From the NCBI GenBank assembly GCA_009392215.1, contig VFGZ01000026.1, forward strand, positions 124,001-188,000: a stretch of DNA of 64,000 nt, written 5' to 3'. A program made the position numbers and the translations under genes. Below the pieces are notes generated by a model. That model was not told the origin of the DNA. It did no database searches and saw nothing but the letters and a program-made list of their open reading frames with translations. Source of the stretch: SAR202 cluster bacterium. GTDB taxonomy: Bacteria; Chloroflexota; Dehalococcoidia; Lucifugimonadales; Lucifugimonadaceae. This document shows, in pieces, positions 5,494 through 51,187 of the stretch; within the stretch, counting starts at the first letter, position 1, and each line of letters opens with the position of its first letter.

Positions 5494-6648
5494 ATGAAGA
5501 TTACAAAGATAACCCCTTGGCTCCTTCTGGCTACAGCTGCTTATAATTTTGGTAGGCAGGGTGAGTACATATTTGTAGAGGTTCAGACAGACGAGGGAAT
5601 TACCGGATGGGGGGAAGTGACAACCACTTACCCGGCTGCTAATCGGGCAGTTTGTGCCGTTCTTCAACAATTGGAACCCATGTTGAAAGGTGATGACCCC
5701 CTTCACATTGAAATGATCTGGAACAAAATTTTCAGGCGGTTTACTTATATGGGTTCCCGAGGAGCTACCACCAATGCCATCAGTGGTATTGATATAGCCC
5801 TATGGGACATTCGTGGAAAGATATTAAATCAGCCTATCTACAATTTGCTGGGTGGACCTGTACGAGAAAGCGTAGAACTTTACACGCATCCCGATCCCAA
5901 TATCGGACCTGACGAAGCAAAGAGGCAGGCGAAGGAGATTGCAGATTCGGGGCATACAGCTATGAAATTTGATCCGTATCCGAATATGCCGGAGGAGAGT
6001 AACGGTTATCTGAGTGGAAAGATGACGGCCCAAGGTGAGGCAGAGGGCAATGAAATAACAGCGGCGATTCGTGAAGGCGCAGGTCCTGAAATGGAACTGC
6101 TTATTGATGCACATGGTCGCTTTGATGTGCCTACCACTGTTCGTTTATCACGTAGCGTTGCCTCTTCGAACATTCACTGGTGGGAAGAACCCGTCCCCGT
6201 CGAAAGCACGCACGCGCTGAAAAATGTACGTGATCAGATCGATCTTCCGATTTCTGTCGGTGAGCGGCTTCATACCCGCTGGGAATTTGTAGCCGTTCTC
6301 GAGCAGGATCTAACCGATTTTCTAATGCCAGATGTCACTTGGACCGGCGGGATATCGGAGTTGAAGAAAATTTCCACTATGGCTGAGGCCTACTATGTTC
6401 CGATATCACCTCATGATGCCAGTGGTCCAATTAATGTACTCGCTGGAGCTCAGGTTATGATGACTGTCCCGAACTTCTACAAACTCGAAACAGCTCGTCA
6501 CAGATTAGTTGCATATGACAACTTTATTCAAACCCCCTTGGACGTTCGAGATGGTAAGTTGCATTTATCTGATGCTCCAGGTCTTGGGATTGAGATGAAC
6601 ATGGACTTTATGCGATCAAATTCTGATAAGCAGTTTTGCGGGGATTAG
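5494..6648 (+). CDS. Enolase-superfamily sugar-acid dehydratase (galactonate/mannonate dehydratase-like)
   Basis: A 384-residue mandelate racemase/muconate lactonizing-type protein starting MKITKITPW, the usual N-terminus of the family. The frame is open further upstream to a TTG at 5353, but that extension does not look like this family. Expected active-site elements are in order: AMKFDPYP after the capping domain, metal-ligand Asp plus His in IDAHGRF, Glu in WWEEPVP, Glu in VGERLHTRWEF, and catalytic His in SPHDASGP. The DxHGR pattern is that of D-galactonate and D-mannonate dehydratases, so dehydration of an aldonic acid to a 2-keto-3-deoxy acid is the likely reaction. It is first in a plus-strand run with another enolase-superfamily gene and an MFS transporter. 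Confidence 0.85.
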   Translation: MKITKITPWLLLATAAYNFGRQGEYIFVEVQTDEGITGWGEVTTTYPAANRAVCAVLQQLEPMLKGDDPLHIEMIWNKIFRRFTYMGSRGATTNAISGIDIALWDIRGKILNQPIYNLLGGPVRESVELYTHPDPNIGPDEAKRQAKEIADSGHTAMKFDPYPNMPEESNGYLSGKMTAQGEAEGNEITAAIREGAGPEMELLIDAHGRFDVPTTVRLSRSVASSNIHWWEEPVPVESTHALKNVRDQIDLPISVGERLHTRWEFVAVLEQDLTDFLMPDVTWTGGISELKKISTMAEAYYVPISPHDASGPINVLAGAQVMMTVPNFYKLETARHRLVAYDNFIQTPLDVRDGKLHLSDAPGLGIEMNMDFMRSNSDKQFCGD

Positions 6649-6716
6649 AAGAATGTAAATTTCTGCGTAGCCGACAACTAATTGATGCCGAATAAATACA
6701 TACGAGACAAAACATA

Positions 6717-7895
6717 ATGAAGATCAGATCAGTGAAAGCAGTCGAAATTGATGCGACGCCTCAAGTCAAGACTGTGCCACGTGTTCCCAAGACTGAGACA
6801 GATGGTTTTGTGAGTCCTATGCAGAGGTACCCCGAGATGAACCGGTCAGATTGGGCTAATGATTGGAAGCGGACTGCCTGCGTGGTAACGGCGGATGACG
6901 GCACTTGGGGCTTCGGATTGACTCTGCATAGTGGTGTCACGGTTTCCTTGATTAACGACCATATTGGTCCGATGGTTGAAGGGGAAAACTGTATGGCCAC
7001 GGAGCGAATTTGGGATCTGATGCAAAAAGCTACCTCTCCTTATGGCACGGCTGGAATTTCCAGTTTTGCAATTAGCGCCGTGGACAATGCCATTTGGGAT
7101 TTAAAAGGTAAATTATTAGGCAAACCTGTTTACGAATTGATCGGTGGGCCACAGAAAGAGAAAATATTCTGTTATGCAAGTAACACAGACCTGTCGTATG
7201 GCACTCACAACTCAATTGCTTGGTTTTTGGAACTTGGGTTTAAAGCCGTAAAACTTTTTTTGAGAGAAGGTCCGGATGCTGGTATAGCTGGACTTAATCG
7301 GACAGAGGAGTTGGTTGCAAGTACACGTGAGCAAGTGGGCAGCGACATCGAAATTGCTGTTGATTGTTGGATGTCAATGAATACCGATTACATGGTGAGG
7401 CTTGCTGAGATACTGCGTCCGTATCGTATAAAGTGGCTTGAGGACTATATGCTTCCTGAGGATCTGGATAGTTATTTTAATCTGCGTCAGAGGGTTCCTT
7501 ATCAGACCTTAGCAACCGGTGAGCATTGGTATTCCATACATCCCTTTGCTCTGGCTGCGAGCCATGGTCTGGTTGATATATTTCAACCAGACTTGCAATG
7601 GGTCGGTGGACTTACGGCCGGGATCAAGATCTGCCATCTAGCGGAAGCTCATGGTTTGACAGTTATTCCACATGCTTCGACAAACTATCCTTATGGACAA
7701 CATCTCGCATACGCCATGCCCGCTGTGATGTGGGCTGAACGTTCCGAAGGGGTTGCTCCCCCTGGTGTGCCATTAGAAGAGTTAGTAGTTCTTCCAGGTA
7801 CACCGATTATTAAAGACGGTTATCTGACTCCGTCCAATGCTCCGGGTTTTGGATTTGAATTTGAACTTGATTGGATCGAACAGCGATCGACGTAA
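6717..7895 (+). CDS. Enolase-superfamily enzyme, L-rhamnonate dehydratase-like
   Basis: A 392-residue member of the mandelate racemase subgroup, diverged from the preceding gene. Visible elements: Lys in AVKLFLREG, metal ligands in AVDCWMS (Asp), KWLEDYM (Glu) and ATGEHWYS (Glu), and a His in VIPHASTNY. The DCWMS, GEHWYS and IPHAS pattern and the long N-terminal insertion resemble L-rhamnonate dehydratase; substrate assignment remains inferred. The protein would act in the cytoplasm on an acid sugar. It starts 68 nt after the previous gene and is followed by the MFS gene 110 nt downstream, which suggests a shared catabolic role. Confidence 0.84.
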   Translation: MKIRSVKAVEIDATPQVKTVPRVPKTETDGFVSPMQRYPEMNRSDWANDWKRTACVVTADDGTWGFGLTLHSGVTVSLINDHIGPMVEGENCMATERIWDLMQKATSPYGTAGISSFAISAVDNAIWDLKGKLLGKPVYELIGGPQKEKIFCYASNTDLSYGTHNSIAWFLELGFKAVKLFLREGPDAGIAGLNRTEELVASTREQVGSDIEIAVDCWMSMNTDYMVRLAEILRPYRIKWLEDYMLPEDLDSYFNLRQRVPYQTLATGEHWYSIHPFALAASHGLVDIFQPDLQWVGGLTAGIKICHLAEAHGLTVIPHASTNYPYGQHLAYAMPAVMWAERSEGVAPPGVPLEELVVLPGTPIIKDGYLTPSNAPGFGFEFELDWIEQRST

Positions 7896-9487: not shown

Positions 9488-12400
9488 CTAATTCGCATCC
9501 TCGGTAATTTCATGCACGCGATTAACCGTGATTTTTTCTTTTGTTGTGGTTCGACCACTGGGCCATTCGATGGATACGTCTACGGAATTGGATGAACCAA
9601 CTCCGAAGTGAGCATCTAGTGAACTCATTGAGAGGAAACTCGACGATCCCATCACTTCCCGCGTCTGGGTAATTAGGTTTTCATTTTCAGATCTATGAAC
9701 GACGGTAACTTTAGCTCCAATCGCATCGGCGTTTGAGCCGGTTCCATCCACAGCCATACGTCCCTGAAGTTTGAACGAAACCCAATTGTTATCACCGCCT
9801 CCGTTCATCCATACAAATAAGGGTCCGCTTGCTACTTCGAGTTCTCCATGATGATTAAATGTTTCTCCATTGCTGTTGGTTCCGATCACATCGATAAAGC
9901 CGTCAGCGTTCAAATCGCCCACAGCGACGCCTTTACCGTTTTCGTGGTATTCCGGTCCGAGTCGATGTTTGGAACCGTTGAAATTGTGGTTGTCTGAATC
10001 GAGAATTGAATAGTCCACTGCCAATGCGTCTATAGTTCTAGATTCGACGGTCACGTCTTTGAAAGATTTATCTCCGGTGTTTTGCAGCATCCTTCCAAAA
10101 CCAATTGCTATGTTTCCATTTGGACCTTCTCCTCTGGATCCTAATGACCCTAACCAGTAGAGGTCTTGATCTGCATCATTGTCCATGTCAAAAAAGGCCG
10201 TGCCGAAACCGAATTCATAGGCTTCAATGCCGGTTATGCCGTTATTGTTGGCTGCTTGAAATTCCTCCCCTAGAGAGGCTGGTGGAAGAATTGGACTAGC
10301 AACGACTTTTGTCTCTCCGGCAACAAAGCGGAATGCTCCATGTCGATCGGGGTTGGAACCTTCGTTAACCCGATTCTCTATAAGCGCATGGAAACACGTC
10401 CCATAGTCAGTCGGGTGATAGTAGGCGCAATCGGCCGAAGGTGTCGTCGGTCGAGGTCGAGTAAGTGGTTGGAATCCCATGTTGGTCACAAACACGTCTA
10501 AATCAGCATCGCCATCGTAATCACCGATTGCGAAACCCATCCATTGACCAATCTGATCGATGCCTAGTTGTTCTGCTATAGGGGTGAACAGCATACCGTC
10601 GTCCGTAGAGTCGTTGCGATAGACCTTGAGCCTGTCCCCATCGTCTCCAACCCAAAGGTCGAGGTCTCCGTCTGAATCATGATCGAACATTGCAGTTGCC
10701 CAAGTTTGCCCGGCAGGATCTCCTACTATATTCCCTTCTCCATCCACCATATTGGTATCAAATCCCTCTAGAGATGCTCCATCCGCCCGTGGGAACGTAA
10801 TTGGATTACCTTCCTGGTCAAGCATTCGAATTTCTGGCGATATCAATCCGGCTTCGACGGTACGATCAGAAAACGTGAGATCACCGTTATTTTGGAACAG
10901 TGTGTTGTAATGTCCGTGATGACGCGAAGTGTCGAATCGTACGAAATCCTGATCTGCTCGGTTACCGACATATACATCAAGCCAGCCGTCGTTGTCTAAG
11001 TCACCACAAGCTACGCTCGCAGTTGACCGTATATTCACGTGCTCAGAGAAGGCGCTCGCTGTGATATCTGTAAAGGTGCCATCAGCGTTGTTATGAAATA
11101 ATCGATCTTGCATTACCACGGCAAGATTAGGATGCTGCGCCAGAGAACGGTAATCGAGGTTGTCTCCGATACGACCTTGGGCACCTACATAAAGATCTTG
11201 ATAGCCGTCATTATCGAAATCACAGGCAGCGACTGCCGTTGAGTTGTGGGCATTAGCCGCCACCCCGGCTGAGACGGCAACATCAGTGTAAATATTTCCA
11301 TCATTTCTGAATAGCTTATTGGCCCCGCCGCGAGTGATCTGGAACACTGCATTCGATTCGGCGGATGTTACATAGAAATCCAAGTCCCCATCTCTGTCGA
11401 AATCAAAAATCGCCACTCCCGGGTAACGGTTTTCGATCAGCGCGTCATCTCCAATTTGTGGAGCGATATTTTGGAATGGGGCGAATTCGTCCTTGGCAGG
11501 AATTCCGTCGAAAACTTCAGGGTTAATTGTATTTTCGGAAGGGACGTAGCCAGATGCTTGGAATAACTGTTGGATTGATCTTTGTTCTATAGGTTTCTTA
11601 ATCCTGTCACTGAGACCTGCATTCTCCCAGAAATAGTTGCCTCCAAAAAGCACTAGTAAACCCCCTAAAGCCCCCACTGCCCAAGTCGCGGTAGCAAATG
11701 TAACGAGCCCTTTTTTTGGCATTAACTTTGCGAGACCCCAGAAGGTTACAGGCCCTCCCGCGGCAGCGCTGAAAAGCAATGTTGCGCCTGGTGCTGTTCC
11801 CATGCCAAGTAGCAGTAGCAAGGCGACCAGAGGAATTTCGAAAAGCAACGGGACGTTTATCAATATTCCAAATGTTGCTGCGATCAATATGCCACGGACA
11901 TCGTTTCCTAGATAGGTGGCAACCACTTCAGGATTTAGCCATTGAATGACTAGTCCACTCGCAAAGCCTGCTACGATCATGATAGGTGAAAGCCTGATTG
12001 CGTATCCAATGCTTGCTTTTCCCCAGTGCCTAAAAGCGGGTGCCAGCGTTTCTTTCCACCCTGCATGATCCGGGATGTCTACAAAGGAATCGGGTATTTC
12101 TACAGCTTTAGCTCGATCTTTTCTGATACTTAAAACAACAATCGGTCCGATGATTAGAGCACCGATCACAGCCAAAGCAAGTCGACTTATTCCAAGTACC
12201 GGACTGAATACAAAAAATACCATTGCAAGTGCCGGAATATTTAATGTGGTCGATCCTTGGACCATTGCCACGGCACCCTCAACGCTCGCTCGTTTGTGAA
12301 AGGCTGATGACACAGGGACGATGCATGCAGAACAGAGGTTCATTACTCCTCCCGCTGCAGCTCCCTGGACGGTTCGACGGAACACCCCAGCTGTTGGTAG

Positions 12401-12715
12401 GCCTTTTCCTACAGATTTTGAAAAAAGAAAAGCTTCAGCTAAACCGGCAGTGACGAATGCGAAAGTCATACCAACGGTTACGAGCCGTAAGTATGAGATA
12501 GAGAAATTCAGCCACCGACTTACAAAACTCACTCCCGGATCGCGTTCAATACAGAATCCCTGGAAGCACTGGCTGGTAGGGGAGTTGACGGCATCTAAGT
12601 CTTCACCAACTATTCCAATTTTTGGTAGACGGTTGAAAGCCAAAAACAAGCCCAGAACGACTGCTAATATCACCAAGCCTACTATAAGTCTCTTGCGATC
12701 AGCTGATGCAAACAT
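9488..12715 (-). CDS. Permease (ArsP/DUF318-like) fused to an extracellular FG-GAP/VCBS propeller and ASPIC/UnbV domain
   Basis: A 1075-residue fusion. Residues 1-360 hold an N-terminal TM segment and about eight further hydrophobic segments with LCSACIVPVSSAFHKRAS at 127-144, resembling the conserved Cys-containing motif of the DUF318/ArsP predicted-permease family. After a linker, about residues 430-930 carry at least seven calcium-binding DxDxDG repeats (DFDRDGDLD, DFDNDGYQD, DLDNDGWLD, DHDSDGDLD, DYDGDADLD, DMDNDADQD, DLNADGFID), the FG-GAP/VCBS beta-propeller pattern. The last 110 residues, with VSFKLQGRM, GAKVTVVH and VSIEWPSGRTT, match the ASPIC/UnbV domain. The propeller is probably extracytoplasmic and could bind a substrate for the permease; the cargo is unknown. 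Start ATG 12715 overlaps the upstream micro-gene stop by one base (TAATG), so translation is likely coupled. Confidence 0.85.
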   Translation of the reverse strand: MFASADRKRLIVGLVILAVVLGLFLAFNRLPKIGIVGEDLDAVNSPTSQCFQGFCIERDPGVSFVSRWLNFSISYLRLVTVGMTFAFVTAGLAEAFLFSKSVGKGLPTAGVFRRTVQGAAAGGVMNLCSACIVPVSSAFHKRASVEGAVAMVQGSTTLNIPALAMVFFVFSPVLGISRLALAVIGALIIGPIVVLSIRKDRAKAVEIPDSFVDIPDHAGWKETLAPAFRHWGKASIGYAIRLSPIMIVAGFASGLVIQWLNPEVVATYLGNDVRGILIAATFGILINVPLLFEIPLVALLLLLGMGTAPGATLLFSAAAGGPVTFWGLAKLMPKKGLVTFATATWAVGALGGLLVLFGGNYFWENAGLSDRIKKPIEQRSIQQLFQASGYVPSENTINPEVFDGIPAKDEFAPFQNIAPQIGDDALIENRYPGVAIFDFDRDGDLDFYVTSAESNAVFQITRGGANKLFRNDGNIYTDVAVSAGVAANAHNSTAVAACDFDNDGYQDLYVGAQGRIGDNLDYRSLAQHPNLAVVMQDRLFHNNADGTFTDITASAFSEHVNIRSTASVACGDLDNDGWLDVYVGNRADQDFVRFDTSRHHGHYNTLFQNNGDLTFSDRTVEAGLISPEIRMLDQEGNPITFPRADGASLEGFDTNMVDGEGNIVGDPAGQTWATAMFDHDSDGDLDLWVGDDGDRLKVYRNDSTDDGMLFTPIAEQLGIDQIGQWMGFAIGDYDGDADLDVFVTNMGFQPLTRPRPTTPSADCAYYHPTDYGTCFHALIENRVNEGSNPDRHGAFRFVAGETKVVASPILPPASLGEEFQAANNNGITGIEAYEFGFGTAFFDMDNDADQDLYWLGSLGSRGEGPNGNIAIGFGRMLQNTGDKSFKDVTVESRTIDALAVDYSILDSDNHNFNGSKHRLGPEYHENGKGVAVGDLNADGFIDVIGTNSNGETFNHHGELEVASGPLFVWMNGGGDNNWVSFKLQGRMAVDGTGSNADAIGAKVTVVHRSENENLITQTREVMGSSSFLSMSSLDAHFGVGSSNSVDVSIEWPSGRTTTKEKITVNRVHEITEDAN

Positions 12716-18879: not shown

Positions 18880-19935
18880 TTATGAGTTGGCAGGGATGGC
18901 CTTAATAGTCTCTTTTTCCGTCTGGAAAGTGCTGGTGATGTCCGTGTCGGTCATCTCACCATTTTCTTCGTGTAAGAGGCATGCCGTAAGCTGGTGATCA
19001 TTGATCAGGTATTGCGCAGGTTTTGTGTCCTGACATCGATCCATTACAGCAGGGCACCGATCGGCAAACCTGCAACCCGTGATTTGCAGGTCAGATGTGT
19101 CCCAATTTTGCTGGGGTGGTTCTGAGCCCCATCTATTTTTCGGGTCAGGCTGTGGGATCGATTCGATCAATAATTTGGTATACGGGTGTTGAGGGTCGGG
19201 AATCACCGCATCAACGGTACCTGCTTCCACAACTGTTCCTCTGTACATCACCATTATGTTATCGCTGATCTGGTAGGCAGTCGTCAGATCGTGCGTTATA
19301 TAAATGACTGAAATTCCTAAATCTCGATTGAGTCTGCGGATTGAATCAAGGATAGTTGCCCTAAGTGATGCATCTACCATGGAAACCGGCTCGTCAGCTA
19401 GGATCACTCTCGGCTTTAGAAGCAGAGCACGGGCTACCATTACGCGCTGGCGTTGGCCTCCACTGAGTTGATGCGGAAATCTGCCTAGAGTTTCTTCTGG
19501 TACCAGCCCGACCATTTCAAGGGCATCTTCGATCATCTGTTGTTTCTCAGAGGCGGAAGAAGCAAGTCTGAAATTCTTGATTGGCTCGTCTAAAACATGG
19601 TCGACTTTGTAAAACGGGTTGTAAGACTCAAACGGGTCTTGAAATATCGGTTGAATTTCACGTCGGAAATTGCGACGCTCGCGTCGAGTAAGCCGAGTGA
19701 AGTCTTTGCCCCGATATAGCATTCGGCCAGCGTTTGGCACATGGCTGCCCAAAAGAAGCCTGGCGAGGGTGGTTTTGCCGCTTCCACTTTCGCCAGCTAC
19801 TGTGGTGATGGAAGATTCGTCTTCATCAATCGAGAGTGAAACATCATCGACTGCAACTGTCACCGAGCCATTGCCGAACATGCCTTCACTTCCGAAGGTT
19901 TTGGTGACGTGCTCTAATTCGAGGAATGTGCTCAT
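18880..19935 (-). CDS. ABC transporter ATPase, oligopeptide/dipeptide type (DppF/OppF-like)
   Basis: A 351-residue ATPase with Walker A GESGSGKTT, signature LSGGQRQRV, Walker B VILADEP and the C-terminal oligopeptide-transporter extension with CRFADRCPAVMDRC. The start chosen is ATG 19935: it overlaps the TGA of the partner ATPase by four bases (ATGA) and has GAGG upstream; an in-frame start at 19965 would overlap more. Last gene of the four-gene importer operon at 18880-22987. It pairs with the next ATPase to energise uptake across the cytoplasmic membrane. After the extension is a short Thr/Glu-rich tail of no known role. Confidence 0.9.
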   Translation of the reverse strand: MSTFLELEHVTKTFGSEGMFGNGSVTVAVDDVSLSIDEDESSITTVAGESGSGKTTLARLLLGSHVPNAGRMLYRGKDFTRLTRRERRNFRREIQPIFQDPFESYNPFYKVDHVLDEPIKNFRLASSASEKQQMIEDALEMVGLVPEETLGRFPHQLSGGQRQRVMVARALLLKPRVILADEPVSMVDASLRATILDSIRRLNRDLGISVIYITHDLTTAYQISDNIMVMYRGTVVEAGTVDAVIPDPQHPYTKLLIESIPQPDPKNRWGSEPPQQNWDTSDLQITGCRFADRCPAVMDRCQDTKPAQYLINDHQLTACLLHEENGEMTDTDITSTFQTEKETIKAIPANS

Positions 19936-20966
19936 GATTTGGCCTCTTCTTCGTATAGATGGCAAGCTACTTCTCTACGGCCGCCAAGATCGAACAAGTC
20001 AGGTATTTCAGCTTGGCATTTTTCAAAACGAGATGGACATCGATCTTCAAATGCACATCCCTCTGGCAGAAATATCAACTGGGGGGGCAGACCGGGAATC
20101 CCAAGGAATTCCCGTTTTTCTTGCAGAGATGGCAGACTACCGATCAGAAGTTTTGTATACGGGTGCTTAGGGTCGCTGAACACTTCCTCGACCGGACCTA
20201 TTTCGACGAGTTTACCTGCGTACATAACACCGATTGTGTCTGCAAACTGGGCGACCAACCCCATGTCGTGACCTACTAACATGATCGAGGCATCTAGGCC
20301 CTCTTGCAGCCGGCCCAGCGTTTGCATTATCTGTCGTTGAACGACGACATCAAGAGCTGAAGTTGGCTCGTCGGCAATTATTAGTTTGGGACGCAACGAA
20401 ATGCCAATGGCCATTGCTACACGTTGTTTCATCCCGCCAGATAGTTCGTGAGGGAATAATCGGGCTACAGATGGTCTGAGACCAACGCGTGTAAGTAGAT
20501 CCCGCACCGTTTCTTGCAATTCTTCCTTGGTGGGTTTGGGATCATCATCGTCGAGGTGGTCGATAATCCCATCGACAATTTGTCGCTCGATCCTCATTAC
20601 CGGGTTCAGGGAGTTCATTGCTCCTTGGGGGACGAGTGCTAGTTCAGAAAGGCGTGTTTTACGCATTTCATCATCCGAGAGTTTGGTAATGTCGCGCCCA
20701 TTCAGTGTGACGCTGCCTTTTGCTATGTGTCCCGGCGGTCGGGTTAATCGCATGAGAGCCATTGCCAGTGTTGTCTTACCAGATCCAGATTCACCCACGA
20801 GTGCAAAACGTTCACCTTGCTTCAGAGTGAAAGTGACGTCATCGCAGGCTTTGACGGTTCCGTTATCGGTTTCGTAGTAAACCGAAAGATCCTCTACAAC
20901 GAGAGCATCGGCGTCGGTAATCCGAGCACCCTCTCGGTAAGTTTTGATTGCTTGTTCAGTGCTCAA
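19932..20966 (-). CDS. ABC transporter ATPase, oligopeptide/dipeptide type (DppD/OppD-like)
   Basis: The ATPase has Walker A GESGSGKTT, Q-loop LVPQGAMNSLNP, signature LSGGMKQRV, Walker B LIIADEPTSALD, H-loop VGHD and the C-terminal Cys motif CAFEDRCPSRFEKC. I place the start at TTG 20966: it overlaps the permease stop by four bases (TTGA) and has GAGGA six bases upstream, the pattern seen at other junctions here. A possible ATG at 20996 would overlap the permease by 34 bases and has a weaker ribosome site. It forms the heterodimeric motor with the downstream ATPase. Confidence 0.88.
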   Translation of the reverse strand: MSTEQAIKTYREGARITDADALVVEDLSVYYETDNGTVKACDDVTFTLKQGERFALVGESGSGKTTLAMALMRLTRPPGHIAKGSVTLNGRDITKLSDDEMRKTRLSELALVPQGAMNSLNPVMRIERQIVDGIIDHLDDDDPKPTKEELQETVRDLLTRVGLRPSVARLFPHELSGGMKQRVAMAIGISLRPKLIIADEPTSALDVVVQRQIMQTLGRLQEGLDASIMLVGHDMGLVAQFADTIGVMYAGKLVEIGPVEEVFSDPKHPYTKLLIGSLPSLQEKREFLGIPGLPPQLIFLPEGCAFEDRCPSRFEKCQAEIPDLFDLGGRREVACHLYEEEAKS

Positions 20967-21889
20967 ACGCGTTTCCTCAATCGTGGGTTGGACCATTCAT
21001 CCAGTCCTGATGAAATCAAGAACAGGCTTACGAATACGATTACAATTGCCACCAGAGGCGGGACCCACCACCACCACATTCCCAGCGTGATTGATGAGAA
21101 CTGTATGTTCCAATAGATCGTCATCCCCAAAGTAGGGTCGCTCAAATTGCCAAGCCCTATGGCTTCCAATCCAATGGAAGCCAGGATTGCTCCCGCAACC
21201 GATGCTACAAGGCTTGCTGTTATGTACGGTATCAGGTTGGGCATCATTTCCTTGAATATGATCCCCATCCCACTCGTGCCCGATAAGCGAGAGAGTTCGA
21301 CGTAGGCTTGCTCTCTCATTACAAGTACTTGTGATCGAATGGTTCTTGCAGGGAATACCCAACTAGTTAGACCAATCGCGATTCCCATTTCATCTGTCGA
21401 TAGCTCTCGCCCAACGTTGATCCGGACAAGAATCAGTATCAACAAGGCCGGCATCGCCAAGCCTACGTCGACAATTGAACGGATAGCGCCGTCTATCACG
21501 CCTCGATAGTAGGCGGATAGGAATGCTGCGACAGTGCCAAGGCCGATCGCTACGACTCCTGCGATTAGCCCGATACGTAGTGTTAGCGGCGTCCCCAAGA
21601 TAGCGATCGCAAGTAGGTCACGTCCTTGAGTGTCTGTCCCAAACGGATGTTCTGCGGTGGGTGCAAGGCGTGTCGGGGTAGAAAGTGGTCTGAACATTTC
21701 TGTATCCCATATCAAATGCCCAATCCCAACAAGAAACAACATACCGAATAGCAATACGAGTCCTACGATTAGGGATGGGTTACGTACAGCGTACTTTTTA
21801 ATTGGAACTATGCGTTCTTCGTTGAATTGATCCCATCCGCCGCTCGGAGCTTTGTTCATTTGGGTTGGTGAGGCAACTGAGTCAGTCAT
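20963..21889 (-). CDS. ABC transporter permease, DppC/OppC-like
   Basis: A 308-residue membrane protein with an N-terminal TM segment after a 40-residue cytoplasmic head, the HPFGTDTQGRDLLA motif typical of DppC/OppC proteins, and a binding-protein-dependent transport domain with about five more TM segments. The coupling loop is in the REQAYVELSRLSGTSGMGI region. Its ATG directly follows the stop codon of the DppB-like permease, so the two are translated from one message. It forms the translocation channel with that permease. Confidence 0.9.
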   Translation of the reverse strand: MTDSVASPTQMNKAPSGGWDQFNEERIVPIKKYAVRNPSLIVGLVLLFGMLFLVGIGHLIWDTEMFRPLSTPTRLAPTAEHPFGTDTQGRDLLAIAILGTPLTLRIGLIAGVVAIGLGTVAAFLSAYYRGVIDGAIRSIVDVGLAMPALLILILVRINVGRELSTDEMGIAIGLTSWVFPARTIRSQVLVMREQAYVELSRLSGTSGMGIIFKEMMPNLIPYITASLVASVAGAILASIGLEAIGLGNLSDPTLGMTIYWNIQFSSITLGMWWWWVPPLVAIVIVFVSLFLISSGLDEWSNPRLRKRV

Positions 21890-22987
21890 TTAAGTATTCC
21901 TCACTTTGATCCTAGGATCGAGCAATGGGTATAACACGTCGAGCAGGAAGGTCGCCCCGGCAATTCCTAGAATTATGACTATTACGATTCCTCGTATTAC
22001 GAAAAAGTCAGAGAGTCGAATCGCCTGAAATAGTATGTCTCCGATTCCTGGGTAAGAGAATACCCTTTCTACAAGGACCTGACCGGTGACAATGGTTCCT
22101 AAGACGAGGGCGAGGCCGGTTACCTGTGGAAGTAGGGCGTTACGAACTGCGTATCTCATAAATATCCGTGATCCCTTCAACCCTTTGGCATCTGCCTGAA
22201 TCATGTAGTCCTCACCCTGTGTATTAATCATCATCCCTCTCATGCCAATTGCCCAGAATCCAATTGCTGAAAAGATGATGGCGAAAGCAGGTAGGATTGC
22301 ATGACGGAGCACATCTACGACGAAATCCCAACTTAGATTTGGAAGGGTCGAAGGAGAATAGCCTCCAAATAACGGTAACCACCCTAGTTTGAACGCGATG
22401 ATAAAAATCAAGATCATCGCTAATAGATATTGTGGTATAGCGGAAAGGGTGAGGAGAGGCATAAAGACGTATTGGAGCCACCCCGGACGTCTGGGCCAAC
22501 CCAAAAAAGCTCCAGCCAGTGTCCCTAGTATGAATGCCAAAATTGTTACTGTTCCCATTAATCCCAAGGTCCACATCAAAGACTCAAAAACGATGTCATT
22601 GACGGTTCGAGGGAAAAAGGCGATTGATGTGCCAAGATTGAGCTTCGACAGGTCGATCATGTAGTTGGTGTATTGAGTCCAAAGGGGTTGGTCTAGACCG
22701 AATCTCTTTTGATAGGTCTTCGCCATTTCATCGAGTCCTGTTTGCATTGCTCCGCCACGCTGCGCTTCGAGGAGGAGCTTTTCCTTTACGGGATCCTGTC
22801 CGGACAGGCGCGGTATTATGAAAATCACCGTTGCTGCTATCCATACGACGAAAAGGAAAAATAAGAACCGCTTCACGACGAAATTGCCCAGAATACCTGA
22901 GAGGATACGGAGGGACGTTCCTGTAAAGGAACTTAGTTTCGATGGTGAAGAGTTTTCAGCGACCTCTGATTGCTCTGTCACGGGCAC
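21890..22987 (-). CDS. ABC transporter permease, DppB/OppB-like
   Basis: A 365-residue permease with a long N-terminal head of about 38 residues, TM1 at about 39-60 and the usual DppB pattern: FGLDQPLWTQYTNYM after TM1, LGTSI, then five TM segments, a coupling loop with YMIQADAKGLKGSRI, and VERVFSYPGIG. The start is GTG 22987; no strong ribosome site is visible and GTG 22981 is a close alternative. First gene of the importer operon and divergent from the binding-protein gene, with the 415-bp region between them holding the control signals. Confidence 0.88.
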   Translation of the reverse strand: MPVTEQSEVAENSSPSKLSSFTGTSLRILSGILGNFVVKRFLFFLFVVWIAATVIFIIPRLSGQDPVKEKLLLEAQRGGAMQTGLDEMAKTYQKRFGLDQPLWTQYTNYMIDLSKLNLGTSIAFFPRTVNDIVFESLMWTLGLMGTVTILAFILGTLAGAFLGWPRRPGWLQYVFMPLLTLSAIPQYLLAMILIFIIAFKLGWLPLFGGYSPSTLPNLSWDFVVDVLRHAILPAFAIIFSAIGFWAIGMRGMMINTQGEDYMIQADAKGLKGSRIFMRYAVRNALLPQVTGLALVLGTIVTGQVLVERVFSYPGIGDILFQAIRLSDFFVIRGIVIVIILGIAGATFLLDVLYPLLDPRIKVRNT

Positions 22988-23402: not shown

Positions 23403-25265
23403 TTGACTTTTACTAAGAGTTGGAGAATCCTCTTCCTCGCCATGTTGTCGTTTGCTCTTGTAGCTGCGATTGCTTGTGGTGGAGACGATGACGATGCTCC
23501 AGCAGAATCAGCAGCGCCGGCCGCTAAGGAACCGGCTGCCGCTCCCGAACCCACGGCTAAACCCGCAGAGGAAGCTCCCAAGGCGTTGCCTGTAGAGGAA
23601 GTCTCACGAGACGACACTCTTATGGCGTATCTCGGTGGTGCTGAAGGCCGGTTTGTCGACCACGAACTTTGGAACCCTTATGCGATTGGTGCAAACCACC
23701 AATCCGGTCCAAACATCATCTTCGAGCCTCTTGCATTCTTTAGTGCATTCGACTCAAAGACGATTCCGTGGCTCGCAGAAAGCTGGGACTGGAACGGCGA
23801 CTATACAGAATTGACTATTAACCTGCGGACCGGAATTAACTGGTCTGATGGTGAAGAGTTCAACGCAGACGACGTTGTATACACGTTGAACACTCTCAAG
23901 GACCTCAAGGAAGAGGTTCGATGGGGTACAGACATTGACAACGCCATGAACCGTGCGGAAAAAGTCGACAGTCACACCGTAAAGGTGATACTGGATCGAC
24001 CAGACCCACGATTCATGTTCCTCTTGACCTACAAGTTCGACATCGGCGTATACATGGTGCCTGAGCACCACTACAACGGTCGAGACTGGACCACTTTCAA
24101 AGACTATGACCCTTCAAAGGGTTTCCCTCTGACAACAGGTCCATGGCAGGTTACATCTGGAACACCAGAACAGAAGATCATCGACCGCCGCGATTCTTGG
24201 TGGGGCGATGGCTTGGCTGACCTCGGTCAGTTCGGTAAGATGCCTGGACCAGCACGTGTGGTCTACCTTCCGACTCCTGACCAGACAGTCAGGTCGCAGG
24301 CTTTGATTTCTGACACCGTAGACTACTCGGCAATGACGACACCAGCTGTTATTGTTGAGACTCTAGGTAAGAACTCAGACCTTGTGACACACACTGGTAC
24401 AGAAAGCCCTTACGGCTATGTTGACTGGTGGCCCGTATCCATTGGATTCAACAACTCAGGTAAGTTCGGCCCTTACGACAACAAAGACGTACGATGGGCA
24501 TTCAGTTACTTCCTTGACAGGCAGGAACTGAGTGACGTGGCCTACGACGGTGCAGCAGCATTCAACCCGCTGACTATGCCTGGCTACCCGCCACTTAAGA
24601 AGTACTTTGATTCCGTAGCCGACATACTTGCAGTCTACGACACCACCGAGTTCAACGTTGAAAAAGCCAACGGTTTGCTTGAAGGTGCCGGATTCTCTAA
24701 GGACGGCGATGGCAACTGGGTAGACGCCCAGGGTAATGGCATCAACTGTGAAATCATTGGATTCAGCCCGTGGGTGGACCTAGGTCCTATCACTGCTGAG
24801 CAGCTGCGACGTCAGGGCATAAATGCTTCTTACTCACAGCCGCCCGATGCTTCTTCACGAATGGCTGAAGGTAACTTCGAATGTCTGATGTTCGGACACG
24901 GCGGATCGGTCCGTGACCCTTACTTCACAATGAAGCTTTACCAGTCAGCGTCAGTAAACATTCCTGGTGGTCACCAGGTTAACTTCTACCACTGGGAGAA
25001 TGCACGGTGGGATGAGCTTACTGACGAAGTGGCGAAGACTCACCCTGACGACATCGACAAGATGCAGGAACTGTGGCATGAGGCCATGGAGATCTGGCTG
25101 GCCGAACTTCCGGACGTACCAATCCTAGAGTTCTACCACCGTATCGTCATGAGTGAGAAGCGCTGGACAAATTGGCCTCTTGGTGGACAGACCGACGGTT
25201 ACGTGAATGAGGCCTCTTGGCACCTCACGTGGGGTATGGTTCTGCATGCACTTAAGGCTAAGTAG
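23403..25265 (+). CDS. ABC transporter substrate-binding lipoprotein (SBP family 5, peptide/nickel type)
   Basis: A 620-residue extracellular solute-binding protein. It has a lipoprotein signal peptide with Cys25 as the probable lipidated residue (VAAIAC then GGDDDD), then an Ala/Pro/Glu linker to about residue 65. The domain has the family 5 features [20 protein letters not shown] and [22 protein letters not shown] is the start: GGAGGT lies 6-7 nt upstream and no ATG fits. It delivers substrate to the divergent importer at 18880-22987. Codons in the body are strongly C- or G-ending (TTC, AAC, GAC, TAC, AAG), unlike most neighbours, as expected of a highly expressed gene. The ligand cannot be stated; the family covers peptides, nickel chelates and sugars. 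Confidence 0.9.
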
Positions 25266-25310
25266 CGAGACTCATGTAGTTTTTGCTACTTGAGATAAAA
25301 GACGCGATCG

Positions 25311-25343
25311 GAGTGCCCCGCCAAACAAATTGGCGGGGCACTC
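25311..25343 (+). terminator. Strong hairpin terminator after the binding-protein gene
   Basis: A perfect 13-bp GC-rich stem (GAGTGCCCCGCCA and its complement) with a 7-nt loop starts 46 nt after the stop. The following tract TCTTAGTT is only weakly T-rich, so it may also protect the message 3' end. Confidence 0.75.
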
Positions 25344-25391
25344 TTAGTTAACGGCAACTTTAGAATGCTGCATTAGGCTATCCTTCAGTTT

Positions 25392-25928
25392 ATGCATCAA
25401 TTTGTAATAAAACTGAGGTCCGCATCTGATTCACAACTGGGGTCAGTCGGTCTTTGGAACTCACCATTTTTTCACTGGTGCCTATTTCTCATGCTCTCCA
25501 CAACCTTGCTTTCATTTTTTGGATGTAGCACGGAGCGAGAAACACTGGTCGATGGTAAGACAATCGATGAAGACGGTTTAAGACTTACAGTTCGGCCAGG
25601 TGCCATATATACGATTGATGATCTTGTAGCTGTTGGTTACAAGAAGAATAAACAGTTCGAAGTGGATCAAGTTCCAGGAGCGAATGACATCTGGTACGGC
25701 TTTTTTCAACAGAAAGATATCGAGATACGGTTCTATGACTCGCATGCTGCGGCTGTCGAACTCGGCGTTGAACTGGCCGAAGAGGTGATCGCCAAGAAGG
25801 CAGGGCAACGAGATTTTCTCATACCAGTAGTCAACCTATATCCCGCATATGCTGTGGTTGGGAATACAGTTATGCTCTGCGAACGTCAGCTTTCCACTTG
25901 CGAGGCATTGATCGAAGCACTGGACTGA
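25392..25928 (+). CDS. Secreted lipoprotein, paralog A of a five-member family
   Basis: A 178-residue protein whose hydrophobic segment ends LLSFFGC, so the probable lipidated Cys is residue 45; the N-terminus before it is long and the true start may lie downstream. The mature part shares the family layout: YTIDDL, a VPGAND segment equal to the LPGA of paralogs, IEIRFYDSHAAAVELG, YAVVGNTVMLC and a final Cys a few residues later. It lacks the internal DRR-Cys loop seen in paralogs B, C and E. It is convergent with the other four and separated from them by a shared terminator. I do not recognise the family. Confidence 0.68.
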   Translation: MHQFVIKLRSASDSQLGSVGLWNSPFFHWCLFLMLSTTLLSFFGCSTERETLVDGKTIDEDGLRLTVRPGAIYTIDDLVAVGYKKNKQFEVDQVPGANDIWYGFFQQKDIEIRFYDSHAAAVELGVELAEEVIAKKAGQRDFLIPVVNLYPAYAVVGNTVMLCERQLSTCEALIEALD

Positions 25929-25957
25929 ATGATGAGTACGCCATCAAAATGTCAACT

Positions 25958-26002
25958 GAAAAGCCCGTGTTCTTTCTGATCGGGCTTTTCAATCATTTTT
26001 TT
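25958..26002. terminator. Terminator between convergent lipoprotein genes
   Basis: A perfect 10-bp stem (GAAAAGCCCG with CGGGCTTTTC, 13-nt loop) followed on the plus strand by seven T at 25996-26002. It lies 29 nt after the plus-strand gene and 11 nt beyond the end of the minus-strand gene, so it may work in both directions. Confidence 0.85.
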
Positions 26003-26013
26003 ACTTGGTCGGG

Positions 26014-26589
26014 TCACGCAGGCTCTAAGAGAGTTATCAAGTTATTGCAATTCTCAAATGCTGCAGAAGACTCATCTCCTTCGCAGAAGAGAATCATATT
26101 TCCTCGAATAACGTACTCAAGATACCGTGCGGAATATGAACAGCCTGAATGAGGGGTGCCTGCAGCCCGGCTGCATTTTCTACGATCCTTTTCACCCTCT
26201 TCCCACAAAACCTCATCGCCGATCACTACCGCATCATCGCCCGTTATTGAGTCCGCATAAAGTGTTCCTTGTTCAACAGCATCCTCATGAGTCGCGTAGA
26301 AGCGGATTTCATAGTCAAGCTTGTTGTAGATAACATTTCTGGCATCAAGTGCACCCGGAAGTTCTTCAATTTCGTATTTCTTGACTATCTTGACTCCGGA
26401 GGCCTTTATGGCTTCGATATCTTCGATTGCGTAGGTCCGATTACCGCCTAGCACACGTTCGATGGATGACTCTGAATCATTATCGGAACCGCTGCCACAT
26501 GCGGCAGTTAATACCAACATGAGCGTAATCACGCATCCGATTAGTAGTCTGGTAATTGGTCGATTTAAAACGAGTTGGCTGGACATCAC
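26014..26589 (-). CDS. Secreted lipoprotein, paralog B
   Basis: A 191-residue protein with a lipoprotein signal peptide ending LVLTAAC, then an acidic Ser/Asp linker. Family motifs: YAIEDIEAI, KKYEIEELPGALDA, YEIRFYATHEDAVEQG, W-EEG-KDRRKC, YVIRGNMILFCEG and a last Cys in ENCNNLI. Four Cys in the mature part form two likely pairs: the loop pair after DRR and the pair FCEG with ENC. GTG 26589 directly follows the TAG of paralog C, and ATG 26586 is an equally good start. Co-transcribed with C. Function unknown. Confidence 0.72.
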   Translation of the reverse strand: MMSSQLVLNRPITRLLIGCVITLMLVLTAACGSGSDNDSESSIERVLGGNRTYAIEDIEAIKASGVKIVKKYEIEELPGALDARNVIYNKLDYEIRFYATHEDAVEQGTLYADSITGDDAVVIGDEVLWEEGEKDRRKCSRAAGTPHSGCSYSARYLEYVIRGNMILFCEGDESSAAFENCNNLITLLEPA

Positions 26590-27165
26590 CTATTGCACCA
26601 CTGACATTAAGTCAGCACATGCCTGATGCGATGTCAAACTGTCTTTCCCTTGGCAAAGCATGATCATGTTACCAACAACCACGTAGTCAAAGTACTTTGG
26701 ATTGTCACATTTGCCAGAATGATGACCACCATTGCCCGCGCACTGTCTGCGATCTTTAAGTCCCTCGTCCCATCGTTGGATATCTTTGAGAATGACGGCA
26801 TTAGCCCCTGTGGCTTCGTCAGCGAAGTCTACTCCTGTGCTCATGGCTGTCGCGTGATCCGCATAAAAGCGCACTTCGTATTCAAGTCTAGAGTACGGGT
26901 CAGAGCCGTAAAAGCCATAGATTGCGGCGATGGCATCGTCTAGGCCTTCTACATCGTAGTCGTCATCTAGTTTGAAGTTGGTCGCGTTCTTGATGTCGTC
27001 TGTAGTGTATATACGGTCAGTATCGTTGATTTTTGCGATAGGTCCTTCAGATTCTGAAACCTCTCCATCCCCACCGCCACCACATGCGATCGCAGCAACT
27101 GCCAACGCTATTACCGCAAACAGCAGCAACGGTAATTGGAACATGCTGCTTTTTCTTTGGTTCAT
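26590..27165 (-). CDS. Secreted lipoprotein, paralog C
   Basis: A 191-residue protein with lipobox AVAAIAC and a Gly-rich linker. It carries YTTDDIKN, DDDYDVEGLDDA, YEVRFYADHATAMSTG, W-DEG-KDRRQC, YFDYVVVGNMIMLCQG and a last Cys in HQACADLM. The start ATG 27165 has GGGGAG six bases upstream. Paralog B follows with no gap. Cys layout matches paralogs B and E. Probably anchored to the outer face of the cytoplasmic membrane. No known family recognised. Confidence 0.72.
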   Translation of the reverse strand: MNQRKSSMFQLPLLLFAVIALAVAAIACGGGGDGEVSESEGPIAKINDTDRIYTTDDIKNATNFKLDDDYDVEGLDDAIAAIYGFYGSDPYSRLEYEVRFYADHATAMSTGVDFADEATGANAVILKDIQRWDEGLKDRRQCAGNGGHHSGKCDNPKYFDYVVVGNMIMLCQGKDSLTSHQACADLMSVVQ

Positions 27166-27293
27166 AAGAAGCTCCCCGTTATAAGCGCGAATCCCACCGC
27201 AAGCGTAGTGTAGAAAAATATAGTGTGCGGTAGATACGTCAAATATACCTTTTTATAGCTCGATAGTCATCTCGTAATATTCAGATACCGTAA

Positions 27294-27857
27294 TTATCCA
27301 CCTTTACCTCGTAAACGTGAGATCAACGGTGCGCAGTGGTCAAGGGCGTGTTGCGAAGTTCTTCCTTCGCAAAGTATTACTACATTGCCCAAGATTACAT
27401 AATCCCCGTACCGAGGGTTTTGACTCCCTCGAGATCCGCCTCCGACGATCATTCTTCTATCCCGGACTCCTTCACTCCATAATGTATCGCTTAAGCCGAG
27501 GGATGCGTTTGCTCCTGAGGCATCTTCAGCGAAAGGTGTCCCTTGTTCCACTGCTAAGTTGTGGTCTGGATAGATCCTTATTTCATAATTCAAACTGCTT
27601 AGACCTGGTGGAGTCCAGAATCCAACATACGCAGCTTCGGCCCCTGTCAGGCCGTCAACGTCATATTTTTTCCCTCGCTTCCATCCAGCGTTTTCTAGAT
27701 CTTCTATGGTTAGGACTCTATCGATGTTTTCAATTTTGGCAATGGACCGTTCCGGTTCAGCAACCCCGGAATTTAAAGTGCAGCCTAAAATGCCCGAGGT
27801 GGGAAATAAGGTTAGTAAGATCAAAAAGCTAACGACGATGGCTCTTATCTTATTCAT
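27294..27857 (-). CDS. Secreted lipoprotein, paralog D
   Basis: A 187-residue protein with a signal peptide ending SGILGC. Family motifs: LTIEDLENAGW, KKYDVDGLTGAE, YEIRIYPDHNLAVEQG, W-SEG-RDRRM, YGDYVILGNVVILCEG and a last Cys in LDHCAPLI. It has the terminal Cys pair but has lost both Cys of the DRR loop, which argues that those two form a pair in the paralogs that keep them. Its ATG overlaps the end of paralog E by eight bases, so D and E are translated together. Confidence 0.7.
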   Translation of the reverse strand: MNKIRAIVVSFLILLTLFPTSGILGCTLNSGVAEPERSIAKIENIDRVLTIEDLENAGWKRGKKYDVDGLTGAEAAYVGFWTPPGLSSLNYEIRIYPDHNLAVEQGTPFAEDASGANASLGLSDTLWSEGVRDRRMIVGGGSRGSQNPRYGDYVILGNVVILCEGRTSQHALDHCAPLISRLRGKGG

Positions 27858-28422
27858 TTTTCATTAATTCGGTTGCCAGTAATCCACATCGCTCAACAGA
27901 CTGGGTTTGATCTGCACCCTCACAGAGCATCAATACATTGCCGAAGATAGCGTAACTTCCGAACTTCGAACAGATTCCGCTTCGGGCACCGCCACCGACT
28001 CCGCTGCCACACGCCATTCGACGATTTTTAACCCCTTCCTTGTAGGTTGAATCGCTTTTATTCAAAATAGCGGTATCGCCAGAGCCTTCGATGGCTAGCG
28101 CTGTACCGAGATCGACTGCTTTTTGGTGTGATTCGTAAAACCGTACTTCATATTCGTAAGGATCACCGCCTGGTATTCGCAGGAATCCATAACTGACAGC
28201 TGAAGAGCCTGGTAGGCCTTCAGTTGGGTAGTTACTCGATTCTTTGAATGTTGTTTTTAGCAGGTCATCTAAAGTGAAGACCTGCCCGGGATCACTTATC
28301 TGCGGGAAGTTGTCTTCTTCGGTTGTAAGTGATGTGCAAGCGGTGATAGCACCAATGATAGCTACAACTAATAGGGCTTTTAGAGGTCGTTTGTGTAGAT
28401 GGTTCGCTATCCGAATTTTCAA
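27850..28422 (-). CDS. Secreted lipoprotein, paralog E
   Basis: A roughly 190-residue protein with a basic N-terminus and a signal peptide ending GAITAC. Motifs: FTLDDLLKT, NYPTEGLPGSSA, YEVRFYESHQKAVDLG, Y-KEG-KNRRMAC, GSYAIFGNVLMLCEG and a last Cys in VERCGLL. I chose TTG 28422, with AAGGA and GGAG just upstream; TTG 28437 in the same frame is possible. First of the minus-strand lipoprotein genes, divergent from the epimerase pair at 28650. Function unknown. Confidence 0.7.
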   Translation of the reverse strand: MKIRIANHLHKRPLKALLVVAIIGAITACTSLTTEEDNFPQISDPGQVFTLDDLLKTTFKESSNYPTEGLPGSSAVSYGFLRIPGGDPYEYEVRFYESHQKAVDLGTALAIEGSGDTAILNKSDSTYKEGVKNRRMACGSGVGGGARSGICSKFGSYAIFGNVLMLCEGADQTQSVERCGLLATELMKNE

Positions 28423-28612
28423 TGATTCCTTCTCCAAACAAAAGTTGTGATTAGCGTACCAAACATTATGGTGTGACCCGATAAGTAAGTTAGACTTTTT
28501 TGCTGATGAGATACCGCGTCAGTAAATTGTGTTTCTATTAATTAGGGTCTCCCTATCACACTTCGATGTCTTTTCAGGGTTAGTATTTAGCTATTGGGTG
28601 AAGGAACCTTTT

Positions 28613-49091: not shown

Positions 49092-49748
49092 CTAAATGTA
49101 CAATCCCAATTGACCACCCCCCATAAAAAATAATTCAGAAGGGTTGCTTCCCGCACAAACATAATTATTGGACGGATCAAAACTGGCCATCAGCCGATAC
49201 CCGTCGGGTGAACGTTGTCTGCTAAGTTTTAGCGCTTCCTGAGCTGCTGTATTTATTAGTTCCGTACTCCACATTTCTCTTTGTTTGGTACCAGTGCTGG
49301 ACGAAATTCTTGCTGTGAATGGCGTCTCTGTAATTGAGTATTCTTCGGTAACCAAATCATTTCTTTTGTTGATGTTTGATTTGAAAGTCGATTCTTTTAT
49401 CTGACGGGAGATACCTGAGACTACATGTAGGTGGGCGTGGATTTGGCTTTGATGTGCTTTACGACCAAAGTTTGCGATCACGCGGTAACCGTACTGACTA
49501 CAGTGTTTATCCCCCATTTCCACGGCGAGTTTGGCACATTCCATCAGTGTGCTCGAAGACCATAGTTCTCCTTGTGTCATGTGCTTGGCTGGAACTACCA
49601 AAAGCATCACTTTTGCCCATTTCAAACGATTATGAAAACATACCGCATCTGTTTGATTGGTCGCATGTTTTTCCCATCTGGCGAAGCTGTCTCCATTTAT
49701 GATCTGGCAAAACACGCAAGAATTTTCCGCTGGTAAATCAGATCTCAT
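49092..49748 (-). CDS. HIT-family protein with a degenerate second HIT-like half
   Basis: A 218-residue protein. The first half is a histidine-triad domain: NSCVFCQII with a Cys pair, VVPAKHM and the catalytic SQIHAHLHVVSG. The second half (about 130-218) repeats ELWSS-like and YGYRVIANF-like segments (EMWSTELINTAAQEA, DGYRLMASFDPSNN) but has no His triad. HIT proteins hydrolyse or transfer nucleotides such as adenosine polyphosphates. The ATG overlaps the upstream helicase-loader-like gene's stop by four bases (ATGA). Confidence 0.8.
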   Translation of the reverse strand: MRSDLPAENSCVFCQIINGDSFARWEKHATNQTDAVCFHNRLKWAKVMLLVVPAKHMTQGELWSSSTLMECAKLAVEMGDKHCSQYGYRVIANFGRKAHQSQIHAHLHVVSGISRQIKESTFKSNINKRNDLVTEEYSITETPFTARISSSTGTKQREMWSTELINTAAQEALKLSRQRSPDGYRLMASFDPSNNYVCAGSNPSELFFMGGGQLGLYI

Positions 49749-51187
49749 GTTCGGCGTGATTTTTTTTTCGTTGTCCGAGGTCGAGGGGAAGCACCTCTGT
49801 GTCTGAAATCAGGGGCTGATAAGTACCGTTCTGCCACTACTTTGGCATCGGTAAGCCGGGAAACTATTGCTTCTGAGTACCGAGACGTGATTTGAGATGC
49901 TGAATCGCCTATAGTTTCGAGTGCTATGCGACTGGTGAACACGGTGGGCATAATGGCGTCATGTCTGTGTACGATCAACTGGTAAAGCTTTTCTTCAGCC
50001 CATGCCGTTGATACTTCTGCTCCAAGATCGTCGAGTATTAGTACGTCCACATCGCGCACTTGAGCGAATATGCTGTCAAATGATTGTTCTCCACCTGGAC
50101 TGTATGACCTTCTGAGATCGTCAAGTAGGTTGGGAATGAATTTGAAGAGTACATTGCGGCCCTGCTGGATACTTTCCCCGACGATAGCCGCGGCGAGATG
50201 TGTTTTCCCTACTCCAGTTGGGCCCGCTAGGTACAGCCAGCCCGCTGGATGGTCCGCAAATACTCTTGCTGCGTCCTCAGCTTCGGATAAAGATCGTTTC
50301 TGGGCTGATGATGCTCCACTGGCACCTTTGGATGTGAAACTGTTGAACGTCATTGATTCGGCCAAATGGATATCCAGGCCCGAGTGTTTTATGTCTGGAG
50401 TCCCACTTCCCGACTTTATGTGTACCAGTTTCGAAAAATACGGATCCCCTAATCTAGTGCGTAGGCGATCGTTTAACTCGTCGAAGCGCTGTCCGGTGGT
50501 AACCATCGTCGGTAGGCGACGATTGTAGCGATGAGTAAGAATTTGATCTAGTTTTTCATCTGCCCAGGCTGTGCCTGATTGGACTCCTAGATCATCAAGT
50601 ATGAGTATCGGTGCTTCTATCGCCTGTAGGAATATATCGTCAAATTGTGCACCTATTGCAGGGTCGAAAGCTGATCGTAGATGATCTAAGAGATCGGGTA
50701 CGGATACAAATCGCACCGGTTGGTTGGTTTCTACTAGAGCATTGCCAACGGCGGCTGCTAGGAGTGTCTTACCGGTGCCTGATGGTCCGGACAGGACTAG
50801 CCACCCCTGTGGATCAGAAACAAACCTTTGTGCTGCATGATAGGCTTCTCGAAAGCTGGAAGGCTCGGAGAAGGTGTCCTTGGAGCCGAGTTCTACGGCA
50901 TCAAAAGTGAGTCGTTCTAGCGGTCCTAGGTCTGAATACTGCCTGATGCGATCGGAGGACTTTACCCCCCAGACCCTTTCCTGACACTTGCATGGGATGA
51001 CCGTCCGGGCTGATGCTGGAGAATTTTCTTTCGGTGCGACAACAAACCACCGTTTGTCATCGCAAATGTCGCAACGAATCTCTGGGTTAGTTAGCTCCTC
51101 GAGCTCGCTGTCGTTTGAGGTATTCACCGTAGAACTGGTCTGATCGATCCTCTTCAAGATCTCGTTCAGTGGTTCCATTCCTTCCAT
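49745..51187 (-). CDS. DnaC/IstB-like ATPase with two tandem AAA+ domains
   Basis: A 480-residue protein. The N-terminal region has CDICDD and CKCQ Cys pairs, a probable zinc finger. AAA+ domain 1 has Walker A GPSGTGKT, Walker B ILILDDLG and GTAWADEKLDQIL. Domain 2 repeats this with GPTGVGKT, VLILDDLG and STAWAEEKLYQLI. A basic tail ends KKKSRRT. Helicase loaders normally have one such domain. It lies after dnaB and a DnaD-like gene, so loading DnaB is the likely role. ATG 51187 has GAGGAG seven bases upstream and overlaps the DnaD-like gene by 101 bases; TTG 51193 is an alternative. Confidence 0.85.
   Translation of the reverse strand: MEGMEPLNEILKRIDQTSSTVNTSNDSELEELTNPEIRCDICDDKRWFVVAPKENSPASARTVIPCKCQERVWGVKSSDRIRQYSDLGPLERLTFDAVELGSKDTFSEPSSFREAYHAAQRFVSDPQGWLVLSGPSGTGKTLLAAAVGNALVETNQPVRFVSVPDLLDHLRSAFDPAIGAQFDDIFLQAIEAPILILDDLGVQSGTAWADEKLDQILTHRYNRRLPTMVTTGQRFDELNDRLRTRLGDPYFSKLVHIKSGSGTPDIKHSGLDIHLAESMTFNSFTSKGASGASSAQKRSLSEAEDAARVFADHPAGWLYLAGPTGVGKTHLAAAIVGESIQQGRNVLFKFIPNLLDDLRRSYSPGGEQSFDSIFAQVRDVDVLILDDLGAEVSTAWAEEKLYQLIVHRHDAIMPTVFTSRIALETIGDSASQITSRYSEAIVSRLTDAKVVAERYLSAPDFRHRGASPRPRTTKKKSRRT

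Follow-up and report, generated by a model that had tools for sequence, protein, structure and literature searches.

Five adjacent lipoprotein genes, designated A to E, lie in the window (the whole 64,000-nucleotide stretch that was analysed) next to a gene for a family-5 solute-binding lipoprotein (SBP_bac_5, hereafter SBP) and four genes of an oligopeptide-type ABC importer (Table 1). The arrangement of one plus-strand and four minus-strand lipoprotein genes described in the first-pass annotation was recovered, each ORF encoding a product of 178-195 aa with a hydrophobic leader and a lipobox Cys at its end (5/5). A putative lipobox Cys was likewise found in 171 of the 173 family members of a non-redundant set. 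Gene A is transcribed in the same direction as the upstream SBP and opposite to B-E. Since D and E overlap by 8 bases (at the end of E) and B and C abut with a gap of 0, B-E seem to form one or two transcription units. The hairpin that separates the SBP from A could be terminator-like or could stabilise the 3' end of the SBP transcript. It was missed by the terminator scan because its T-run is poor, and the promoter and terminator scan gave a result at chance level. Two ORFs elsewhere in the window were noted by eye. One (9488-12715, minus strand, 1,075 aa) appears to join an ArsP-like permease to an FG-GAP/ASPIC-UnbV-like extracellular part, and a similar long ORF adjoins DUF6810 in L086; the other (49745-51193, minus strand) carries two consecutive DnaC/IstB-like ATPase domains.

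Table 1. Lipoprotein genes A-E and neighbouring features (positions in the window)
Feature	Position	Strand	Remark
Oligopeptide-type ABC importer ATPase 1	18880..19965	-	assigned from sequence
Oligopeptide-type ABC importer ATPase 2	19932..20996	-	assigned from sequence
Oligopeptide-type ABC importer membrane component 1	20963..21889	-	assigned from sequence
Oligopeptide-type ABC importer membrane component 2	21890..22987	-	assigned from sequence
Family-5 solute-binding lipoprotein (SBP_bac_5)	23403..25265	+	conserved neighbour, codon-biased
GC-rich hairpin, 15 pairs, strong	25310..25344	+	between SBP and A; z -4.87; poor T-run
Gene A, DUF6810 lipoprotein	25392..25928	+	lacks W-EG-DRR segment and loop Cys pair
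Gene B, DUF6810 lipoprotein	26014..26589	-	loop and terminal Cys pairs present
Gene C, DUF6810 lipoprotein	26590..27165	-	Cys pairs C142/C153 and C171/C183
Gene D, DUF6810 lipoprotein	27294..27857	-	terminal Cys pair, no loop pair
Gene E, DUF6810 lipoprotein	27850..28437	-	loop and terminal Cys pairs present

The five products had been described as sharing an ordered series of motifs. Alignment confirmed the order, but not the presence of W-x-E-G-x-D-R-R in all five: the segment is missing entirely from A, which reads GQRDFLIPVVNLY there, and E has Y-K-E-G-V-K-N-R-R in its place, with Y and N variants. Several letters of the other motifs vary as well. The products had also been assigned to an unrecognised family, which a profile search corrected by placing them in the catalogued Pfam family PF20650 (DUF6810). 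The E-values (A, 7.6e-22; B, 5.8e-35; C, 9.5e-45; D, 3.7e-55; E, 2.7e-55) put the five-way similarity far beyond chance. Scores ranged from 78 to 187 bits against a curated cut-off of 25 bits, DUF6810 was the sole Pfam match above cut-off, and all 105 of the 105 aligned relatives matched the same model. Pfam describes PF20650 as a 'family of unknown function'. An NCBIfam search of A-E gave no informative match, SBP family profiles had no match above cut-off in A-E, and a literature search for 'DUF6810' found no paper mentioning the name. DUF6810 is a known domain family, and the system itself is real, lineage-restricted and unstudied. To the PF20650 description the present analysis adds three features for which no paper was found under the name DUF6810: the importer-side array, the fusion to a permease and an optional pair of Cys (all below).

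The distribution of the family was narrow. DUF6810 occurred in 2 of 400 genomes of an even sample across the phylum, both from the window's own family, and class-wide in 13 of 393 genomes, again all from that family. Within the family, 36 of 61 genomes carried it, with 1 to 31 domain matches per genome; the maximum of 31 was reached in a 1.3 Mb genome, and the window's own genome (1.8 Mb) has about 16 DUF6810 genes. DUF6810 is confined to a single Chloroflexota family, SAR202 group I, which includes the cultured Ca. Lucifugimonas marina. A DUF6810 match labelled Acidimicrobiaceae (L122) sits on a 3.3 kb contig that may have been mis-binned. Cultured SAR202 group I has 80 enolase-superfamily genes (PMC10444878); in the main text of that cultivation paper the terms 'lipoprotein' and 'unknown function' are both missing.

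We found that the array is old. A phylogeny of 163 members, with several deep forks unsupported, placed each of the five genes in a lineage of its own, and each lineage contained the genes at the same position from other species. The gene order ABC transporter / SBP / A+ / B- C- D- E- was preserved in most of L073-L089, and Ca. Lucifugimonas marina JH1073 carries the same cluster (L081). At L092, L109, L116, L131, L139, L143 and L144 the order included extra copies or was partly rearranged, and several of these loci have different outer flanks. Compared with L073, dN/dS was 0.04-0.14 in A-E, against 0.03-0.07 in the transporter genes, values indicating that all five lipoproteins are under purifying selection. 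Judged from the tree, gene order and substitution rates, the array is made up of five old, constrained paralogue lineages that are orthologous across genera in a fixed order. The tandem diversification proposed in the first-pass annotation, if taken as recent, does not agree with this history, and recent tandem duplication was ruled out by the tree and synteny. Tandem surface paralogues could also arise in conflict with phages or predators, as decoys or receptor shields, and A-E do change faster than the transporter genes (77-90% versus 91-95% identity to the closest relative). The low dN/dS of all paralogues and the fixed order of their orthologues across genera nevertheless make such a conflict highly improbable. 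No DUF6810 relative was found in viral contigs, on which ground a phage link was rejected. In relatives (L074:11244-11819, L081:11724-12302 and orthologues) a lipoprotein weakly resembling staphylococcal nuclease lies just past gene E; the window lacks it. A distant homologue (L165:5404-6132) matches SNase and Excalibur.

SBP orthologues sharing at least 65% identity (65-100%) numbered 24. Two were cut by contig ends, and all 22 readable ones had a DUF6810 gene within about 1.5 kb downstream; for L190 this gene was seen at G434:C19:191904. Six distant SBP paralogues (47-52% identity) had no DUF6810 gene in the flanks examined. Conversely, the SBP was the most enriched neighbour family of DUF6810 genes (20/24), a figure whose p-value overstates independence, the loci having been picked for DUF6810 and many of them being orthologous. 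By strength of codon bias the SBP ranks third among the window's 53 ORFs (Nc 50.1). Its synonymous divergence was also the lowest (pS 0.31 versus 0.43-0.66). These two measures agree with the earlier view of the adjoining binding lipoprotein as highly expressed, as a predicted level. No codon bias was seen in A-D, and E ranked 7th of the 53 ORFs. It could be argued that DUF6810 proteins are general envelope lipoproteins with structural or housekeeping functions, and that the old gene order at the importer implies no functional coupling. Purifying selection on A-E would be expected of such proteins too. However, the link between SBP and DUF6810 persists at loci whose other flanks (epimerases, transhydrogenase) differ, and the distant SBP paralogues lack it, so that a general envelope role is rather unlikely.

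The remaining copies bear on the same question. Eleven of the 16 DUF6810 genes in the window's genome are scattered beside unrelated genes. These neighbours include sulfatases, dehydrogenases and members of the enolase superfamily, among others, and no single partner is common to them, as a general envelope role would have it. A sulfatase is the immediate neighbour at 3 of about 11 dispersed loci of this genome (C54, C12 and C45), and L. marina has one DUF6810 locus with a sulfatase neighbour (L162). The adjoining sulfatase genes of the window's genome are L063:3782-6332, L071:4576-6997 and L067:3951-6245. A cultured SAR202 group I strain has 18 sulfatases and responds to sugars (PMC10444878). 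These observations would suit small carbohydrate-binding or substrate-presenting proteins that serve extracellular catabolic enzymes such as sulfatases, the importer link being one case among others. This is very unlikely, in that the family of the C54-adjacent sulfatase was not clearly enriched beside DUF6810 when all loci were taken together (7/15, p 0.06).

DUF6810 also occurs within larger proteins. Three genomes of the genus encode an FtsX-type permease, about 1,500 aa long, in which the stretch between the membrane parts holds two ankyrin repeats and one or two DUF6810 domains (L062:1-4560, on contig C32 of the window's genome; L152:3361-7830; L153:3076-7494). As three assemblies contain it, a chimeric contig is unlikely. 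Several species also have lipoproteins of about 390 aa in which DUF6810 forms the C-terminal part and the N-terminal half contains Cys.

The first-pass annotation had proposed two co-varying Cys pairs, one of them dispensable, and both parts of this proposal held. The alignment showed the terminal pair in all five products and the loop pair in B, C and E, with both of its members missing in A and D. Among 173 members with pairwise identity below 80%, the terminal pair was complete in 168, absent in 4 and reduced to one Cys in 1, and a Cys pair was present in the loop of 48, a single loop Cys in 2 and no loop Cys in 123; one pair is thus nearly universal and the other optional as a unit. The loop of E is ACGSGVGGGARSGICSK in the window and in its closest orthologue (L073), and IIGGGVGGGARSGIGPK or similar in the other E orthologues, which lack the loop pair. 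Both Cys therefore changed together in a loop that is otherwise alike. With the loop columns excluded from tree building, the two loop Cys needed 7 and 5 changes. A phylogeny-corrected test of their pairing was underpowered, as the supported branches offered 4 independent pairs (median p 0.5), so that the pairing claim rests on the counts and, for E, on the joint appearance of both Cys. By count the pairing appears convincing, with few events (about 5-7 independent changes) beneath it.

Confident structure predictions were obtained for two different paralogues, C (pLDDT 88.8, pTM 0.76) and mature E (pLDDT 92.4, pTM 0.86), each giving an alpha/beta domain. The predicted order of elements was a short helix, three strands, a helix, the variable loop, two strands and a C-terminal helix. 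In the model of mature E the loop residues C110 and C123 are placed on the two strands either side of the low-confidence loop, and of the terminal pair C139 is placed at the end of the last strand and C151 in the last helix. In the model of C the loop Cys fall just beside the corresponding elements. E64, R66, G78, N134, C139 and C151 (mature E numbering) were invariant in 79 diverse members, and K32, Y68 and H71 were conserved in about 95% or more of them. Because E64, R66 and Y68 alternate on one strand, they would face the same side, and V65 and F67 the opposite side. The E64/R66/Y68 face and the other conserved residues suggest a conserved polar site, and invariant charged residues of this kind, pointing to a specific site, count against a general envelope role.

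Comparison with known structures was less informative. Foldseek searches of the models against the PDB and viral models returned nothing at E<=0.001, and a PDB sequence search returned chance matches alone (best E 0.72). Many matches to kinase N-lobes were discarded as a common sheet-and-helix arrangement. The top VIA match of both models was 4esq, the extracellular domain of PknH, with almost all of the domain covered (Z 6.0, rmsd 5.9 over 126; Z 6.1, rmsd 4.9 over 119); by the tool's note, a Z near 6 is background level. The soluble domain of mycobacterial TiME scored 4.8-5.3. PknH-type sensor domains of mycobacteria (PF14032) also exist as free lipoproteins (LpqQ, LprH, LppH, LpqA), and like these the DUF6810 proteins are predicted to be membrane-anchored and extracytoplasmic; they are of similar size, and their two disulfides are likewise predicted. 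Such likeness, and the insertion of DUF6810 in an FtsX-type permease, raise the question whether DUF6810 proteins are PknH-like extracytoplasmic sensors or regulators that bind a signal and modulate membrane proteins near them, such as the ABC importer and the permease. Yet the Foldseek E for 4esq was 1.0 at best, PF14032 had no match in the window's genome at E<=1 and none among the listed family matches of the 105 members, and DUF6810 was not seen in fusion with any sensor kinase or one-component partner. We consider a sensor role unlikely; it and the general envelope role are the main rivals of the explanation that we prefer.

This explanation, to which we assign a probability of about 0.4, is that A-E are accessory ligand-capture lipoproteins for the adjacent family-5 SBP/ABC importer. 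It is based on synteny with the importer, the SBP link in 22/22 orthologues and the SBP enrichment of 20/24, as well as on the permease insertion, the conserved charged residues and purifying selection. The lipoproteins would be anchored outside the cytoplasmic membrane, where a charged face of K32, E64, R66 and Y68, with H71 (mature E), may bind a small polar ligand or precursor. They would concentrate this ligand for the abundant binding protein, or pass it on. The terminal Cys pair would pin the C-terminal helix onto the sheet, and the optional pair would close the variable loop, presumably the part that differs between paralogues. Against accessory capture, the 11 scattered genes mean that the family cannot serve the importer alone, and related uses of DUF6810 beyond the importer may exist elsewhere in the genome. 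Five different accessory proteins for one importer would be unusual, and the hairpin between the SBP and A and the opposite strand of B-E make co-transcription with the SBP questionable. Taken more broadly, the array probably helps to catch or sense a nutrient of the adjoining importer, and a putative ligand-related role of A-E is likely. The first-pass interpretation as a whole thus kept its Cys pairs and codon-biased SBP neighbour, and lost its unrecognised family and, as a recent event, its tandem diversification.

Accessory capture has known parallels. Like the SBP_bac_5 proteins of importers, DUF6810 proteins are surface lipoproteins encoded with an importer; unlike them, they consist of a single domain of about 140 residues without an SBP profile match, and the locus already has its own SBP besides. 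Accessory lipoproteins of the SusE/SusF type in Bacteroidota bind glycans at the cell surface and are encoded beside an uptake system. The proposed working mode of DUF6810, accessory ligand capture beside an uptake system, would be analogous, whereas the cell envelope and transporter differ and no sequence relation was seen. SAR202 bacteria, which the ocean holds in abundance, are known for their enlarged sets of catabolic enzymes. Lineage-restricted, strongly multiplied and importer-tied lipoproteins offer a direct handle on what their surface proteins capture, and the array also provides a lead to the role of an uncharacterised Pfam domain. The question is testable in Ca. Lucifugimonas marina JH1073, which is cultured, has a complete genome and carries the same cluster. 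A bolder view, quite unlikely in our estimate, is that DUF6810 is a recognition module of new fold that arose in one marine Chloroflexota family and reached 10-30 copies per genome, each paralogue capturing a different compound. If so, the module would serve both within an FtsX-type permease and in free lipoproteins encoded beside importer or catabolic genes, and would be the extracellular counterpart of the SAR202 enolase and dehydrogenase expansions for diverse, resistant organic matter.

Several further associations were observed at DUF6810 loci. Next to the dispersed copies there is, in 13 of 18 cases, a membrane protein (about 240-280 aa) that has no Pfam match (for example L102:8621-9337, L112:8792-9517 and L164:3432-4178). 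An MBOAT-family O-acyltransferase adjoins DUF6810 genes in 6 of 6 cases, with sites at L071:7013-8419, L149:4474-5895, L143:2244-3674 and L085:8204-9586. The lipoproteins of about 390 aa are found in the region of L154:5304-6476 and 6631-7620 and at L157, L158, L159 and L171; beside them lie a lipoprotein with a repeated Cys motif (no Pfam match) and an alcohol-dehydrogenase-like gene. At L155:1895-3742 (minus strand), a 616-aa ORF joins a Gfo/Idh/MocA oxidoreductase to a DUF6810 lipoprotein including its signal region, perhaps through a lost stop codon instead of a true fusion.
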